Of a stretch of DNA of 64,000 nucleotides, positions 2,644 through 31,858 are shown piece after piece. The stretch comes from Acetivibrio thermocellus ATCC 27405 (GTDB lineage Bacteria > Bacillota > Clostridia > Acetivibrionales > Acetivibrionaceae): positions 1,736,001 through 1,800,000 of the forward strand of contig NC_009012.1 of assembly GCF_000015865.1 (NCBI RefSeq). The letters are read 5' to 3'. Position 1 is the stretch's first letter. Each line of letters opens with the position of its first letter. Under the pieces are notes generated by a model. That model made no database searches. It was not told the origin of the DNA and worked only from the letters and a program-made list of their open reading frames with translations. The translations under genes were made by a program, and so were the position numbers.

Positions 2644-3066
2644 CTAAAATGTTGTGCATGTATATCTCACAATAGCATTCTTTCCTCTTGCTTCATGACA
2701 ACCAAATGCTGCAAACTCATGATGTGGCAATATATTGGATTTAGTTAATGTTTTGGCAGTAGGTGCATTGGTCTTACTATCAATACAAGTATATAACGGT
2801 GTACCTGTTTTATTATCCTGCACCTCAATTTTTACTATAACTGTTGTGCCGGCTGAATACTTAGTAATTGATGTAATACCTTCTACTCTGACATTATAAG
2901 TTCTGGATATAGGATGGGTGACCTCATGCCCCAAACTCCAAGAAAATGTTCCAAATTCAGGTGTTTGCCCACTTCCCTCGTTTGCACCTGCATTTACTAA
3001 AAGACCGGTCATACTTATAGTTACAATTATACAAATAATTAAAGCAGTAACTCTTACTTTTTTCAT
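2644..3066 (-). CDS. Small secreted protein of unknown function
   Basis: 140 residues. The N-terminus (MKKVRVTALIICIIVTISMT) is a typical signal peptide, probably cut near residue 27 (VNA-GANEG), giving a mature protein of about 113 residues with three cysteines. The start is supported by a GGGGTGA site about 10 nt upstream. I recognise no domain; the charge-poor, Thr/Ser-rich, probably beta-strand-rich mature part is consistent with an extracellular protein. It stands alone between the broken lipoprotein gene and mntP, in the same orientation. Confidence 0.75.
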   Translation of the reverse strand: MKKVRVTALIICIIVTISMTGLLVNAGANEGSGQTPEFGTFSWSLGHEVTHPISRTYNVRVEGITSITKYSAGTTVIVKIEVQDNKTGTPLYTCIDSKTNAPTAKTLTKSNILPHHEFAAFGCHEARGKNAIVRYTCTTF

Positions 3067-3176
3067 TATTTCTCGTCACCCCTTTAATTGCTAATTAATG
3101 TTCAATTATTACAAGAGGTGTGTACGAACGATATATATATTGCCATTAAGTAAACTTTATGTCAATATATTCAATT

Positions 3177-3773
3177 TTAATTAAATTTATTTAAAGAATC
3201 AAAAACAAAAGAAATAACTCCGAGATGATCAAAAAGAATTTTGCAACCCATTCCAATCAAAATAAGTCCGCCTACAATTTCAGCTTTTGACTGAAACTTT
3301 ACTCCAAATAAATTGCCAATCTTTACACCCAGAAATGAAAAAGTGAATGTAGTTATCCCTATCATCGTAACTGCCGGAATAATATTTACCTGCAAAAATG
3401 CAAAAGTCACTCCTATTGCCAGAGCGTCAATACTTGTAGCAAAAGCCATCACCGTAAGACTCTTAAGGCTGAATGTGTCATCTTCGTCAGTTATTTCGCA
3501 GGTATTTTTAGATTCCTTTATCATATTAATGCCAATAAGCGAAAGCAGACCAAAAGCAATCCAATGGTCAATTGAAGTTATATAATCTTTAAACTGTGTT
3601 CCCAGAAGATAACCCAAAAGAGGCATTAAAGCCTGAAATCCTCCGAAAAAACAGCCGGTTAAAACCGCATTCCTGTAACTCATTTTTTTCATTGACAAAC
3701 CTTTGCAGATTGCAACCGCAAAAGCATCCATTGAAAGTCCAACCGCAATAATCAGCAGTTCAATACTACTCAT
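3177..3773 (-). CDS. mntP: Manganese efflux pump MntP
   Basis: 198 residues of the MntP (DUF204) family, which exports Mn2+ across the cytoplasmic membrane. Six hydrophobic segments fill the protein. The conserved Asp-bearing segments are visible near the N-terminus ([15 protein letters not shown]) and again in the second half ([15 protein letters not shown]), as expected for the internal repeat of this family. Length is normal (about 190). The leader (3774-3950) shows no recognisable yybP-ykoY manganese aptamer, although mntP is often controlled by one. Monocistronic and divergent from sppA. Confidence 0.9.
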
Positions 3774-4052
3774 TATTTTTTACTCCTTCGTACGTCAATT
3801 TGCCGCGCAACAAGCACTGCATAAACCTCGCCGCGAAATTTCAATAATATTTATACTAACATAATTTTGGCAAATTGCATAGAGAATTTTCACAGCATTT
3901 TATATCAAATTTTATACAATTACTTCAACGTTTATACTAAGCTGTTATACGGTATTTAAATACCTGTCATTCAATTGGCACTTTACTACTAAAATAGAGT
4001 ATGAGATAATTATTTTCGAAAAAATGCAATTTTTTAGAAAAGGGGTCGAACA

Positions 4053-5033
4053 ATGAACAAGAAACAGCTAATCGGTTTAATTGTGGCAGGAGTAGTATTT
4101 GTTTTTGTTTGTTCTTCAAGTGTTTTGGTAAACACCGTTTCAAAAAGACTCGGAACGTCTCTGAACTTAAGCGACAGCGAAAGCAGTCTTCCTCTTACTC
4201 CCTATATAGGTGTTGTAAGTGTTGAAGGCACCATTATGGACAGCAACTCAACCACAAGTTTCTTAAGCAACGGTTACAACCACAAAGAAACGTTGAAGCT
4301 CATTGAGGATATGAAAAATTCAGCAAGCAACAAAGGCATTCTTTTGTATGTGAATTCCCCCGGCGGAGGCGTTTATGAAAGTGATGAATTGTATTTGAAG
4401 TTGAAAGAATACAAAGAAGAAACCGGAAGGCCGGTCTGGACCTATATGTCAAATCAGGCATGTTCCGGTGGCTATTATATTTCTATGGCATCCGACAAAG
4501 TATTTTCAAACCGAAACGCATGGACCGGTTCCATCGGCGTCATCATCTCCCTGACAAACCTCAAAGGCTTGTACGATAACCTTGGAATTAAAGGTATTTA
4601 TATTACAAGCGGCAGAAACAAAGCAATGGGTGCTGCCGATCTGGAATTGACAGATGAGCAGCGTGATATACTTCAAAGCCTTGTGGATGAGGCATATGAG
4701 CAATTTGTTGAAATTGTGGCGGAAGGCAGAAAAATGACAGTGGAAGAAGTAAAAAGAATTGCCGATGGAAGAATTCTTTCCGCAAAACAGGCACTCGAGT
4801 TGAACCTCATTGATGAAATTGCCACGTATGATGAAGTAAAAGAAGCTTTCAGCGCAGAGCTTGGAAATGTTAAAATATATACACCCAAAAAGAAAGACCC
4901 GTTTGGACTTAGCTCTTTGTTCAGCTATATAAACAGCTTGAAACCTCGCTCTGATACTGAAATAATAGCCGAGTTGATAAAGGCTAAAGGAAATGGGGTG
5001 CCGATGTATTATGCAATGCCGGGACAATACTAA
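4053..5033 (+). CDS. sppA: Signal peptide peptidase SppA (S49 family)
   Basis: 326 residues. One N-terminal membrane anchor (residues 6-28) precedes a single S49 protease domain, as in the short Gram-positive SppA. The Ser nucleophile is in ACSGGYY (Ser138) and the Lys general base in SGRNKAMGA (Lys190), the dyad known for Bacillus SppA. The enzyme degrades signal peptides left in the membrane after secretion. The start has a good site (AAAAGGGG). The 3' end overlaps the following RDD-protein gene, so the two are translationally linked. Confidence 0.92.
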   Translation: MNKKQLIGLIVAGVVFVFVCSSSVLVNTVSKRLGTSLNLSDSESSLPLTPYIGVVSVEGTIMDSNSTTSFLSNGYNHKETLKLIEDMKNSASNKGILLYVNSPGGGVYESDELYLKLKEYKEETGRPVWTYMSNQACSGGYYISMASDKVFSNRNAWTGSIGVIISLTNLKGLYDNLGIKGIYITSGRNKAMGAADLELTDEQRDILQSLVDEAYEQFVEIVAEGRKMTVEEVKRIADGRILSAKQALELNLIDEIATYDEVKEAFSAELGNVKIYTPKKKDPFGLSSLFSYINSLKPRSDTEIIAELIKAKGNGVPMYYAMPGQY

Positions 5034-28143: not shown

Positions 28144-28430
28144 ATATACAAATCAATTACGTGCAATCATATGAACAATATAACCGTTGTTTTGCACGAT
28201 ATAACTATTTTACCACAACATGCCTTACATTTAAATTAATTTATCATTTAAGCAATTCATTTAATGTGTGTGTTTCCCCAATTTTAAAAAATTCTTTTCC
28301 AATCAATAGAAACTCTTGTATTTTTAATAATCATACAATATAATTACATTAATATTGTAACAAACTTGTAACATTTAAATTTTCTCAAAATATTAGTAAT
28401 ACTATAACACATAAAGTAAGGGTGATTAAA
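28144..28430. other. Intergenic region upstream of the TIR-protease gene
   Basis: About 290 nt, strongly AT-rich. No gene and no convincing -35/-10 pair was recognised; the promoter of the TIR-protease gene presumably lies here. Confidence 0.4.
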
Positions 28431-30968
28431 TTGATTTATTTTTGTCACGCTCCAAACGACAGAGCTATTGCGGAAAAAATATATTTTTCGCTTAAGCAAA
28501 CGGGTCTTACATGTTGGATTCCGTCACAGGATATTATGGCCGGTCAATACTATGTGGAAGCTATAGCCAACGCAATTGAAAAATCCGACATCGTAGTTTT
28601 TATTTTTTCTTCACACTCAAATACATCCATACAAGTAATTGATGAATTGCAGAAAGCATCATCACTGAATAAAACTATTATTCCTTTCTGCGTTGACAGG
28701 GCAATGCCCTCAGAGCCAATTGAACACTATTTGAGCAGCCCGTACAAAGTCGATGCAACAATCGGTCTTCCAGATGATAATATTGCAAAGCTTCAGAACA
28801 TTATTAAGCAAATATATAACCAATCTTCCGTACATAATGCTAATGACATTAATACTGTTAAAGATACATTTGCGCCATCCAATCCATTAGAAAATAATAC
28901 AAACATCATAAAAGATGCTTCGGATAACAACAGCCAAGAGTCAATCCAATTTAACGGGGTAATTAATTCAGCTAATTCTCAACCTCCACAAAACCCAAAT
29001 TTGCCTCCACAACACCAAATGAATCCTAACTTTAACAACACAGTCAATAATATGGACAGAAATATGAACTACCCAATAAAGCAAAATGTCCGTCCCAATC
29101 CTCAAGTTAAATCCTCCAATAAAATCAAAATTCCCCTTATTATTGGCGGAAGTATTGCAGGAGGAATCATATTATTGTCAATTTTATTCATGCTTGGGAA
29201 AAACCTATTATTTTCGACATTAATAAACTCGCACAGACCGTCTGACAATCCAGTAATAGGTTCAAACATTCGTATTGACGGCAGTAAATATACCGAAGAA
29301 GAAATTATTGAATTTACAAAAAATGCTATTTTAGAGCTGGATAGATTGCAAGCCTCTCGTGAATTTTATGATACCTATGCATATAACGCACCGGAATATG
29401 ATCTAATGCGTATTCAGGAAAACGTATTCTTTTCACTTATGGATTTGGATGTGGTGAGATTTGAGGAAGTAGCTATTTTAGGTAAAAACGAAAAAGAACA
29501 CGGCATAGAATATCTCCTCAAAGTAGATTTTGTCTGCTATGCGGATTATGAATATACGGAGAATAATGAAACTGTTCACCGCAAAGGAGAAGCATTATTG
29601 TACAATAATGTGGTAATACTTGAAACACCAAATGACGGATTAAAATACTTATACATGGAAGGAATATTTGAAGATGAGTTAAATGCAAGAAATGAGAACT
29701 TGGAGTCTTCATATCGTGAAATCGCCGAATCCGGTGATGTAAACACTGAAGACACCATCCAAACCTACTTGCCTGATTCAACCGACGAAGACACCATTAT
29801 GTCCGTAAAAGATATCGTTAAGAAAAATGACCACAAAGTTGTTGCCGTGTACGTTGATGTACCGGGAGGACAATCTCAAGGAAGCGGATTTTTTATAAAA
29901 GACGGTGTAATAGTTACCAATTATCATGTAATCGAGGGCGGAAAAAGTGCAAAAATTCTCCTTTCCAACGGAAATTACGTGGATGTGGAAGGAGTTTTAT
30001 ACACGGATTCTGATGTTGATATTGCTGTATTGAAATTGGTAAATGAAGTCGGCATCGAGCCGGTAACCATAGGTCAGGCCCGCGATTCCGATAAAGGAAG
30101 TATCGCCGTTGCTATTGGATCACCTTTGGGACTGTTTAATACAGTATCCACAGGAATTATATCTAATTTCTGGGAGGCCAATGGAGTTAACTTAATTCAA
30201 ATTTCCATCCCTATTACCCACGGTAACTCCGGAGGTGCCTTATTCAACGAGTCCGGTAAATTAATCGGTATCACATCCTCAGGAATAGGAGAGGCAAATT
30301 TAAACTTCGCAATTTCTTCAACCCATATAATACCTATTTGTGAGGATATAAAAAATATACCCTATAATCAATTAAATGCAGTTCCCCTTAGCAGTGCAGG
30401 CGGCAATATTAATTCCATTACCAGGCAAGCCGGATCTTCCAATAGCAATCAAAGCAGTTCTTCCGGCAAGAGTCTTTTATCTTCAAAATACAGGTTTGTT
30501 AATTCCGATAAACCAATATCCAACGATGCAACATATACCTCTGACTTACAGACAATATATGACCTGGCTTTAAACAAGTATTATGCCAAAGAAGATTTAT
30601 ACAGAGATCTTGATTACGCCTTTGACTATATTTTGGATTACGGCACAAAGTATTATCTGGAATATTTAGAGTATATACTTCATGAAACATATATAAAAGA
30701 AGATGTAGAAAACTTTAATAAGATAAATGAATCTGTTCTGGAAGTGCTTAACACCACAGGTGAATATATAGAATTTACAGCGGATGAAATTGAAATAATA
30801 GGTGCCGGAATAAAAAACGACGGCACTATTGACGGTATTATTGTGAGAGCTTTATTCTATGAAAATTCGGAGCCTTATGTGAGATCAAAATTTTATTTCA
30901 GAGCTAACTATGACGCATGGAGTTATGTTGATGGCTTCTTGTATGTAGGAGAAGTTACAGAAAAGTAA
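28431..30968 (+). CDS. TIR domain - membrane helix - HtrA-like serine protease fusion
   Basis: 845 residues from a TTG start (28431) with GGGTG 6 nt upstream; an in-frame GTG at 28422 has a poorer site. Residues 1-130 are a TIR domain of the type with WIPSQDIMAGQYYVEAIANA and HYLSSPYKVDA. The Glu expected for TIR NADase chemistry is present in QVIDELQKA (Glu72). A Gln/Asn/Pro-rich linker follows, then one membrane helix (about residues 232-255). After an unrecognised domain comes an S1C trypsin-like protease with His499 (TNYHVIEGG), Asp530 (SDVDIAVLK) and Ser600 (THGNSGGALF). There is no PDZ domain; the C-terminal 150 residues are unrecognised and acidic. Topology predicts a cytoplasmic TIR and an extracytoplasmic protease. 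The gene is alone, followed by a terminator. Confidence 0.9.
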   Translation: MIYFCHAPNDRAIAEKIYFSLKQTGLTCWIPSQDIMAGQYYVEAIANAIEKSDIVVFIFSSHSNTSIQVIDELQKASSLNKTIIPFCVDRAMPSEPIEHYLSSPYKVDATIGLPDDNIAKLQNIIKQIYNQSSVHNANDINTVKDTFAPSNPLENNTNIIKDASDNNSQESIQFNGVINSANSQPPQNPNLPPQHQMNPNFNNTVNNMDRNMNYPIKQNVRPNPQVKSSNKIKIPLIIGGSIAGGIILLSILFMLGKNLLFSTLINSHRPSDNPVIGSNIRIDGSKYTEEEIIEFTKNAILELDRLQASREFYDTYAYNAPEYDLMRIQENVFFSLMDLDVVRFEEVAILGKNEKEHGIEYLLKVDFVCYADYEYTENNETVHRKGEALLYNNVVILETPNDGLKYLYMEGIFEDELNARNENLESSYREIAESGDVNTEDTIQTYLPDSTDEDTIMSVKDIVKKNDHKVVAVYVDVPGGQSQGSGFFIKDGVIVTNYHVIEGGKSAKILLSNGNYVDVEGVLYTDSDVDIAVLKLVNEVGIEPVTIGQARDSDKGSIAVAIGSPLGLFNTVSTGIISNFWEANGVNLIQISIPITHGNSGGALFNESGKLIGITSSGIGEANLNFAISSTHIIPICEDIKNIPYNQLNAVPLSSAGGNINSITRQAGSSNSNQSSSSGKSLLSSKYRFVNSDKPISNDATYTSDLQTIYDLALNKYYAKEDLYRDLDYAFDYILDYGTKYYLEYLEYILHETYIKEDVENFNKINESVLEVLNTTGEYIEFTADEIEIIGAGIKNDGTIDGIIVRALFYENSEPYVRSKFYFRANYDAWSYVDGFLYVGEVTEK

Positions 30969-31008
30969 TTATTTTTAAGGGGTACAGAACATGTGAAATC
31001 ATTGGAGG

Positions 31009-31041
31009 GCTTCAGGTGGAGATTTCAACTCCACTTGAGGC
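31009..31041 (+). terminator. Terminator of the TIR-protease gene
   Basis: A 13-bp stem (GCTTCAGGTGGAG / CTCCACTTGAGGC) with two G-U pairs and a 7-nt loop, 40 nt after the stop, followed by AT-rich sequence ending in TTTTTT. The rest up to 31312 shows no supported gene. Confidence 0.7.
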
Positions 31042-31312
31042 TTAAATATTAATTTTTTCCTCCGCTAAATCAAACGGGATATGTAGATGGATTACAATGA
31101 CTTACTGAGTATATACCGTTATTTTTTAAAACCCTGTATACCTCTAAATGAACCTCTTCTTTTGTTCTCACTTTACTTCCCTCACTTTTTTCTGTTATAT
31201 CGACCCGTTATCAATCCAATGCTGATTGCCGACAGAAGGAGTCTCTTCTTTTTTCAGGAGTCCCTTGTAAGTCATTTTACATATATTAAACAGAAGTCTT
31301 ATTTTCCTTCAA

Positions 31313-31858
31313 TCAAGTCTTATCAGCAAGTTTCCAACCCAATTTATCAATATACAGATATACGCGGACATATCCGTCAACCGGTTTTGTAAAAATAAGA
31401 GTTGAAGTTCTTTGCGTATGTGTTTCGCTTACTCCCAAAAGTGCTTTTCTGTAGACGGAATCAAAAATATTGTATTGATAATCGAAATTATCTTTGTTTA
31501 CACCAATTTTTGAATACATTTGAGCTCTAAAATAGTCTTCATCCATTTCTTCAACTGTAATTTTTTTATGCTTATCATAATAAGCAAATATTTCATTTAT
31601 CTTATTTTCAGGAACCGCCAATTCAGCCTCTATACAGTAGTGAAACTCTATATCTTTTTTTATAACAAAGTTCTTGATTAATGACTCATCATTAAGCTTT
31701 GTATGAAAATATTTATTTATCATTCCTTGCTGAGTGCCGGTTATTCTTTCAATATTAAACCCAATTGAGGATTTGTAATAATATAAAATGGGGAAAACGG
31801 CCAATAAAATTATAACTGTCAAGATTATTACAATCCTTTTTATTTTCAAAGTTAACAC
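31313..31858 (-). CDS. Membrane-anchored protein of unknown function
   Basis: 181 residues. An N-terminal membrane helix (IKRIVIILTVIILLAVFPILYY, residues 6-27) anchors a soluble domain of about 150 residues outside the cell. The domain contains KKDIEFHYCIEAELAVPE and ends in VYLYIDKLGWKLADK. I do not recognise the family. It is convergent with the TIR-protease gene. Codon use looks normal and a GGGGG site precedes the start. Confidence 0.65.
   Translation of the reverse strand: MLTLKIKRIVIILTVIILLAVFPILYYYKSSIGFNIERITGTQQGMINKYFHTKLNDESLIKNFVIKKDIEFHYCIEAELAVPENKINEIFAYYDKHKKITVEEMDEDYFRAQMYSKIGVNKDNFDYQYNIFDSVYRKALLGVSETHTQRTSTLIFTKPVDGYVRVYLYIDKLGWKLADKT

Follow-up and report, generated by a model that had tools for sequence, protein, structure and literature searches.

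A TIR Domain Joined Through a Membrane Helix to an S1C Protease in Acetivibrio thermocellus: A Candidate Transmembrane TIR Sensor

The window analysed here is a stretch of 64,000 nucleotides of Acetivibrio thermocellus ATCC 27405 (contig NC_009012.1, positions 1,736,001 to 1,800,000 of the forward strand), and all unprefixed coordinates below are positions in this window. At 28431..30968, on the (+) strand, it carries a gene whose product is composed of an N-terminal TIR domain, a linker, one membrane helix, an unrecognised domain, an S1C trypsin-like protease, and a second unrecognised domain, an arrangement supported by Pfam and by the orthologues. We will use the term TIR-S1C for this protein. 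The reading favoured here, with a probability of about one half, is that TIR-S1C may act on its own as a transmembrane TIR sensor whose outer module, in this case a protease, is exchangeable and whose output is based on nicotinamide adenine dinucleotide (NAD).

Gene Organization and Domain Architecture

The open frame is complete. It starts at 28422 (GTG) or 28431 (TTG), reaches a stop ending at 30968, and has 848 codons when counted from the GTG. The TTG is the likely start codon, since AAGGG, a likely ribosome-binding site (28418..28422, +), is located eight bases upstream; a TIR-only copy of the gene in another genome (L068, described below) has AAGGGTGGTTAAATTG at the equivalent place. Residues are numbered from the GTG, and Glu75 in this count is Glu72 when counted from the TTG. 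On the 3' side, a stem-loop at 31008..31041 (+) is likely the terminator of the gene. The segment 31000-31062 folds at -23.8 kcal/mol (z -5.1), and a similar stem-loop follows the TIR-only copy. The stem-loop is absent from the output of the pattern scan.

The TIR_2 domain covers residues 5-120 (28434..28781, +), with the codon of the conserved Glu75 at 28644-28646, and matches its Pfam family with an E-value of 5.6e-19 and 69.3 bits against a curated cut-off of 28. It is followed by a polar linker rich in Asn, Pro, and Gln (residues 135-238; 28824..29135, +), which is fast evolving (ratio of nonsynonymous to synonymous substitution rates, dN/dS, of 0.34-0.68 over residues 135-235), and by the single membrane helix (residues about 239-260; 29136..29201, +). 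An unrecognised juxtamembrane domain (residues about 280-436; 29259..29729, +) separates the helix from the S1C domain, which spans residues 456-648 (29787..30365, +). The assignment of the protease is supported by a PDB match, discussed below, and by a Pfam Trypsin_2 match at residues 487-617 (E-value 3.8e-26, 93 bits against a cut-off of 27.6), inside which alignment locates the His502, Asp533, and Ser603 triad of S1C peptidases (codons 29925-29927, 30018-30020, and 30228-30230, +). The remainder is an unrecognised C-terminal domain (residues 685-848; 30474..30965, +).

Neither a PDZ domain nor an RsgI domain was found in TIR-S1C by Pfam at E-values up to 1, and no leucine-rich repeats (LRR) were found by Pfam. 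The NCBIfam scores for HtrA-type proteases are all below their cut-offs (e.g., 111.9 against 416.2 bits). Searched alone, both flanking domains match no Pfam family at E-values up to 10 and no PDB chain, and a comparison of the two with each other gave no match between their profiles, which are shallow. Searches of 291 genomes of the class with each domain returned convincing matches only in G000, G009, and G010; further matches in five and three other genomes, at E-values of 6e-4 to 8e-3, have been taken as chance. A structure model of the protein has low confidence (mean predicted local distance difference test score, pLDDT, 38.6; predicted template modelling score, pTM, 0.26) and is usable at most for the TIR domain; it has helices and then strands in both flanking domains. 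Within model residues 1-140 at most, the TIR (flavodoxin-like) fold is recovered, and the fold matches include NAD-bound TIRs.

A first-pass annotation, made from the sequence alone, had described a complete TIR domain with its Glu, one membrane helix, an S1C protease with a full triad and no PDZ domain, and two unrecognised flanking regions. All of these features are borne out by the searches above.

Membrane Topology

Hydropathy analysis with a strict threshold gives one helix. The net charge is +4 in the 15 residues before the helix and +2 after it, and by the positive-inside rule the TIR domain is therefore predicted to be cytosolic and the protease to be outside. The Toll-like topology that had been suggested earlier, in spite of the reversed domain order, agrees with this prediction.

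Orthologues and Selection

Full-length orthologues have been found in G010 (L005, L007; 84% identical) and G011 (L006, L009; 57%), and an orthologue cut near its end in G009 (L008; 67%), which gives three of the five other genomes of the genus. L005 and L006 are metagenome-assembled records. In the G009 orthologue (L065 122-2563, -), a TAG close to the end terminates the frame, and the last 31 residues match G009:C15:57851-57943, on another contig; the break may reflect an interrupting element or an assembly break. In G006, which belongs to another genus of the same family, a C-terminal piece with 52% identity is located at a contig end, with the upstream part beyond the contig. The combination of protease and TIR is seen only in the genus of the window, plus this C-terminal piece in the neighbouring genus.

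Glu75, His502, Asp533, and Ser603, as well as Trp32, Asp37, and Ser63, are identical in all four proteins (TIR-S1C and its three orthologues), and the domain order is the same in the two full-length orthologues. The homologues thus retain both the TIR Glu and the triad, on which the first-pass annotation had made its proposal depend. An assembly artefact, which it had also considered, is excluded by the two full-length orthologues together with the one cut near its end, and a chance open reading frame has been rejected on the Pfam matches, the orthologues in other genomes, and dN/dS values below 1.

The domains differ in their conservation. Identity to the window protein in L005, L006, and L008, respectively, is 96, 69, and 82% for the S1C domain, 75, 61, and 68% for the TIR domain, 88, 52, and 71% for the juxtamembrane domain, and 77, 54, and 63% for the C-terminal domain. 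In the same order, dN/dS is lowest of all domains in S1C (0.07, 0.20, 0.14); it is 0.22, 0.28, and 0.22 in the juxtamembrane domain, 0.44, 0.29, and 0.32 in the TIR domain, 0.43, 0.41, and 0.47 in the C-terminal domain, and 0.68, 0.34, and 0.59 in the first linker, and these values are rough in some L006 comparisons, where dS is 1.2-1.4. Every domain is under purifying selection, the protease most. As judged from these rates, the protease or a binding activity would have a conserved function, and the protease core is unlikely to be the part of a sensor that changes fast.

The TIR-only copy is located in G011 contig C22 (L068 5881-6279, +). Its TIR domain is 70% identical over 131 residues and is followed by a stop, without a helix or an ectodomain. 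The DNA of L068 matches the window at 77.8% over 527 bases, spanning the TIR domain and about 130 bases upstream, and again downstream, where 107 bases at 89.7% match 31195-31301; the copy therefore occupies the same genomic place as the window gene. G011 carries the full-length gene too, on another contig, and a binning error behind the two copies is possible because the contig with the full-length gene is a metagenome-assembled record. If the L068 copy is real, it suggests that the TIR domain alone is tolerated. As a separate observation, the segment 31195-31301 (+) shares 90% identity with the closing part of a long L068 frame resembling a flavin mononucleotide (FMN) reductase (by eye), and is likely a remnant of that gene in the window.

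Related TIR-Helix Proteins

Searched with the TIR domain alone, 22 of 391 Clostridia genomes give a match at an E-value of 1e-3 or better, three of them from the same genus. Nine of the ten best matches outside the genus have the same plan, with DUF6273 (six proteins) or LRR (three) as the outer part, and the tenth (G088, L043) has no helix. DUF6273 has been tested with Pfam in three of the six, while L040-L042 were named by likeness. TIR_2 itself is present in 114 of the 391 genomes at an E-value of 1e-6 or better. From 80 stretches around listed TIR_2 matches, picked for long frames and not exhaustive, and from other loci, 99 distinct TIR frames were collected with a custom profile built from up to 15 seeds. 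A TIR domain, one helix, and then at least 100 residues are found in 41 of these frames, including TIR-S1C and its three orthologues; the others have no helix by the strict test (53), a helix near the end (3), an N-terminal helix (1), or several helices (1). The charge before the helix is net positive in all 41 and more positive than after it in 35. When frames are located by the position of the Pfam match, the single-helix plan is found in 34 of the 80 stretches. Of the frames located in this way, 29 lie outside the 99; two of these are duplicates and 27 are additional, 11 of them with the plan. The total is 52 of 126 TIR frames with a TIR domain, one helix, and a long outer part, and these come from no fewer than 37 of the 391 genomes. 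Because sampling favoured long frames, the total should not be read as a frequency, and helices scoring 1.8-2.0 are weak. The 27 added frames stand outside both trees described below and outside the count of conserved Glu residues.

The outer parts are diverse. Among 20 proteins scanned with Pfam, the outer part is DUF6273 in five, LRR in three, PASTA plus Lectin_C in one, propeller repeats (of the PQQ/BamB type or other) in four, and RCC1 in one, where the PASTA match is just under the cut-off and the propeller match of L164 is below it; the remaining six have no outer-domain match. An S1C profile matches only TIR-S1C and its three orthologues among the 99 frames, and none of 29 further frames.

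When 95 of the 99 TIRs (four short ones omitted) are analysed in a quick maximum-likelihood tree (131 columns, many forks unresolved), the window TIR belongs to a clade of 14 rows with a Shimodaira-Hasegawa-like approximate likelihood-ratio test (SH-aLRT) value of 97. The clade contains four S1C, seven DUF6273 (four of them tested with Pfam), and three LRR proteins, all with the helix. A more careful tree of 42 chosen rows, three of which are additional TIRs, contains the same clade plus a TIR-zinc ribbon-helix-Sel1 protein (L186, by eye), with a bootstrap of 90 and an SH-aLRT of 92. The support is moderate, because a bootstrap of 90 is below the usual 95. The S1C branch is long inside the TIR clade, and hydropathy gives no helix for the two other close TIRs of the phylum placed in the careful tree (L189 and L190). 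That the TIR domain and helix form a common stem whose outer parts have been exchanged is a reading based mainly on the tree. The comparison with receptors made in the first-pass annotation is also strengthened, as ectodomains of the LRR and DUF6273 types occur within this TIR clade in proteins of the same plan.

Further architectures were observed in the collected loci. Three proteins (L069 2027-4876, +; L048 217-1908, -; L070 1-2133, -) have an N-terminal TIR domain, one helix, and LRR_4 repeats, which is the plan of Toll-like receptors reversed. A frame of 627 residues (L051 7-1887, +; the gene is also contained in L072) begins with a hydrophobic, signal peptide-like N-terminus, and its helix and C-terminal TIR domain follow a long middle region, in the order of animal Toll receptors. 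In L084 (1441-2946, +), a TIR domain, a helix, a PASTA-like region, and a C-type lectin domain are combined in one protein. Four proteins (L125 626-3823, -; L155 701-3877, -; L164 701-3820, -; L171 3380-6487, +) have a TIR domain, a helix, and about 800 residues with matches of the PQQ/BamB propeller type, and their TIR branch is separate from that of TIR-S1C.

Comparison with Known Systems

The clostridial TIR-helix-DUF6273 and TIR-helix-LRR proteins resemble TIR-S1C in their sister TIRs, the single helix, the large C-terminal outer part, and the lack of a neighbour gene common to all loci. They differ in that the outer part is not a protease and in the TIR motifs: most have FISYS, APRD, and HW, whereas the S1C-type TIRs have CHAP/CHTP/CHSP, PSQD/PSND/SSND, and YK. 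Animal Toll-like receptors share the predicted arrangement of TIR inside, helix, and sensing part outside; however, they have an N-terminal LRR and a C-terminal TIR domain, while TIR-S1C has the reversed order without LRR, and homology of the whole plan is not claimed. With HtrA, DegP, and DegS (S1C), TIR-S1C shares a trypsin-like core with His, Asp, and Ser. DegS is also membrane-anchored. In the HtrA/Do group (DegP, DegS, DegQ) a C-terminal PDZ domain is typical, whereas TIR-S1C has none and has a TIR domain in front.

Bacterial TIR NADases such as Cat1, Thoeris ThsB, and SPARTA share the TIR fold and, for Cat1, an aligned catalytic Glu. Such NADases lie in the cytosol and have inner sensors for nucleic acids, nucleotides, or other signals, and no such inner sensor was found in TIR-S1C. 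Glu75 aligns without gaps with the catalytic Glu74 of Cat1, and the Cat1 residues His8, Ser68, and Glu74 are kept as His9, Ser69, and Glu75. Lys121 and Tyr122 of Cat1 lie outside the alignment with the window TIR. The roles of the Cat1 pocket residues are those given in passages of PMC12162218. The TIR Glu is kept in 94 of 95 aligned TIRs and, being near-universal, therefore says little about activity. Cleavage of NAD is a putative output of the TIR domain.

The anti-sigma-I factor RsgI9 (PDB 7sjy) has, like TIR-S1C, an N-terminal signalling part, one helix, and an outer S1C domain (PMC12203970, in part). RsgI9 is the best PDB match of the protease part (E-value 3e-25); its S1C domain is 33% identical and is encoded in the same genome, where the paralogue L002 differs by one residue (by eye, in the aligned part) from the solved RsgI9 domain. 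It differs from TIR-S1C in having an RsgI domain in place of the TIR domain, Thr at the Ser position in the own-genome copy where TIR-S1C keeps Ser, and an NTF2 domain beside S1C, to which the flanking domains of TIR-S1C show no profile match (with shallow profiles and a low-confidence model). The catalytic Ser position of RsgI9 reads KESTGG in L002 (277-2400, +) and KESSGG in the G013 copy (L021 1198-3210, -). RsgI9 may be regarded as a precedent, within this organism, for the use of an S1C domain in sensing.

Surroundings and Defence Context

PADLOC gives domain-level matches only on TIR-S1C, the best being RT-Protease_XI over the protease part. A known defence system has been rejected, as there is no whole-protein PADLOC match and none of the 10 neighbours matches. 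A phage or plasmid gene was likewise rejected: no phage or plasmid record matches at least 80% of the query at a single place, and no relative was found among 11 viral-contig stretches matching six peptide patterns. The STALD domain is part of the Thoeris ThsA-type effector; a search for it in the own genome gave no match, a negative that carries no weight because the control set gave none either. The opposite-strand neighbour at 31313-31858 also adjoins the G010 copy, while for G009 and the full-length G011 copy no more than about 650 bases lie between the gene and the contig end. Across 10 DUF6273/LRR loci, the TIR gene is the only family common to more than three, and the families common to three either stem from a single genus, represented by three genomes, or consist of frames antisense to the TIR gene. 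As far as the contigs show, the gene reads as a single-gene system with no kept partner gene. The own genome has a second TIR_2 gene, of 335 codons (L193 1899-2903, -), just downstream of a protein-kinase-like gene with repeats (2953-4446, -; by eye).

Proposed Mechanism and Alternatives

In the proposed mechanism, TIR-S1C would be a single-pass membrane sensor with the N-terminal TIR domain in the cytosol and S1C and its two companion domains outside. The trigger would be an event in the envelope, in which the protease module binds or cuts a ligand and the ectodomain itself is perhaps then cut. This event would cluster the protein, and the TIR domains would meet and switch on the output, most likely NAD+ hydrolysis or an ADP-ribose signal, with growth arrest or a defence or stress response as the end result. 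The membrane orientation, protease activity, clustering, NAD chemistry, and biological purpose in this scheme are all predictions from sequence. The interpretation in the first-pass annotation is supported in part, for its domain content, predicted topology, conserved residues, and likeness to receptors; NAD cleavage, activation by cleavage of the outside, and a role in defence are hypothetical there as they are here. Anti-phage defence is one possible purpose, unsupported by the scanned neighbours; envelope stress or polysaccharide sensing is equally open.

Several observations weigh against the sensor reading. The positions of Cat1 Ser7, Asn9, Asn10, and Asp33 are Cys8, Ala10, Pro11, and Pro34 in TIR-S1C, and the sister TIRs have HW (7 of 8) or QW (1 of 8) where the four S1C-type TIRs have YK. 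The orientation is predicted from hydropathy and charge only, and the ectodomain part of the structure model is unusable. The single-helix plan is missing from 58 of the 99 TIR frames, and the 10 neighbours gave no PADLOC match. Finally, evolution is faster in the TIR domain than in the protease, and the main role of the protein may therefore lie with the protease.

The changed pocket and the change from HW/QW to YK would suit a TIR domain that is a scaffold rather than an enzyme, which self-associates or recruits a cytosolic TIR partner, with the whole protein passing on a signal from the envelope or keeping the protease in place. The TIR dN/dS, which is 6.2, 1.4, and 2.3 times that of S1C in L005, L006, and L008, and the persistence of a TIR-only copy in G011 point the same way. 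Against this, Glu75, His9, and Ser69 are kept and the fold matches include NAD-bound TIRs, and we consider the scaffold explanation unlikely.

The protein may instead be an envelope quality-control or surface protease first, with a cytosolic TIR domain that regulates or positions it from the inside out. In favour of this, S1C is under stronger constraint than any other domain (96, 69, and 82% identity, dN/dS 0.07-0.20) and its triad is complete; against it, a PDZ domain is missing, and the closest TIRs share the plan but have ectodomains other than proteases, which is why the TIR domain and helix look like a shared signalling stem. This explanation is judged improbable. A polysaccharide or biomass sensor like RsgI9, using the S1C fold for binding and regulated intramembrane proteolysis for release of a TIR fragment, would draw on the 33% identity of the S1C domains and on parts of PMC12203970, in which the S1C plus NTF2 ectodomain of RsgI9 is said to bind polysaccharide and RsgI proteins are described as signalling by regulated proteolysis, cut by RseP and then ClpXP, but is likewise improbable given the Ser kept in TIR-S1C where the own-genome RsgI9 (L002) has Thr, the flanking domains without a profile match to the RsgI9 NTF2 region, and the missing RsgI domain.

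The sensor reading can be extended to a family, a step we take only tentatively. Clostridia would hold a Toll-type family of surface receptors with a clade-inherited TIR-helix stem, exchanged sensors (LRR, DUF6273, Sel1, active S1C), and a common TIR NAD output. In TIR-S1C, the protease would be both sensor and trigger: its action, whether on a substrate from the envelope or a phage or on the protein's own ectodomain, would turn on the cytosolic TIR domain.

Implications

TIR and trypsin domains have been described as parts of conflict systems in other arrangements (PMC8195603 and PMC7159879, in part). Bacterial TIR proteins are presented as architecturally diverse in a survey (PMC7075850), whose text contains neither "trypsin" nor "clostridi". 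Among the matches listed from the open-access literature (titles and abstract starts), none describes TIR-S1C proteins or bacterial TIR receptors in which a membrane helix is joined to an outer domain. TIR-S1C is apparently a new combination of known domains on a known type of plan, and the family that surrounds it is apparently undescribed. To our knowledge, bacterial TIR proteins of known function sense things inside the cell. A membrane TIR protein with an outer protease, and with LRR and DUF6273 sisters, would, if the reading is true, represent a bacterial surface-receptor mode of TIR signalling. The idea is directly testable, as it involves one gene with clear point mutants (E75, S603) in a cellulose-degrading thermophile that is probably non-pathogenic, and if true it would offer a testable parallel to Toll receptors.

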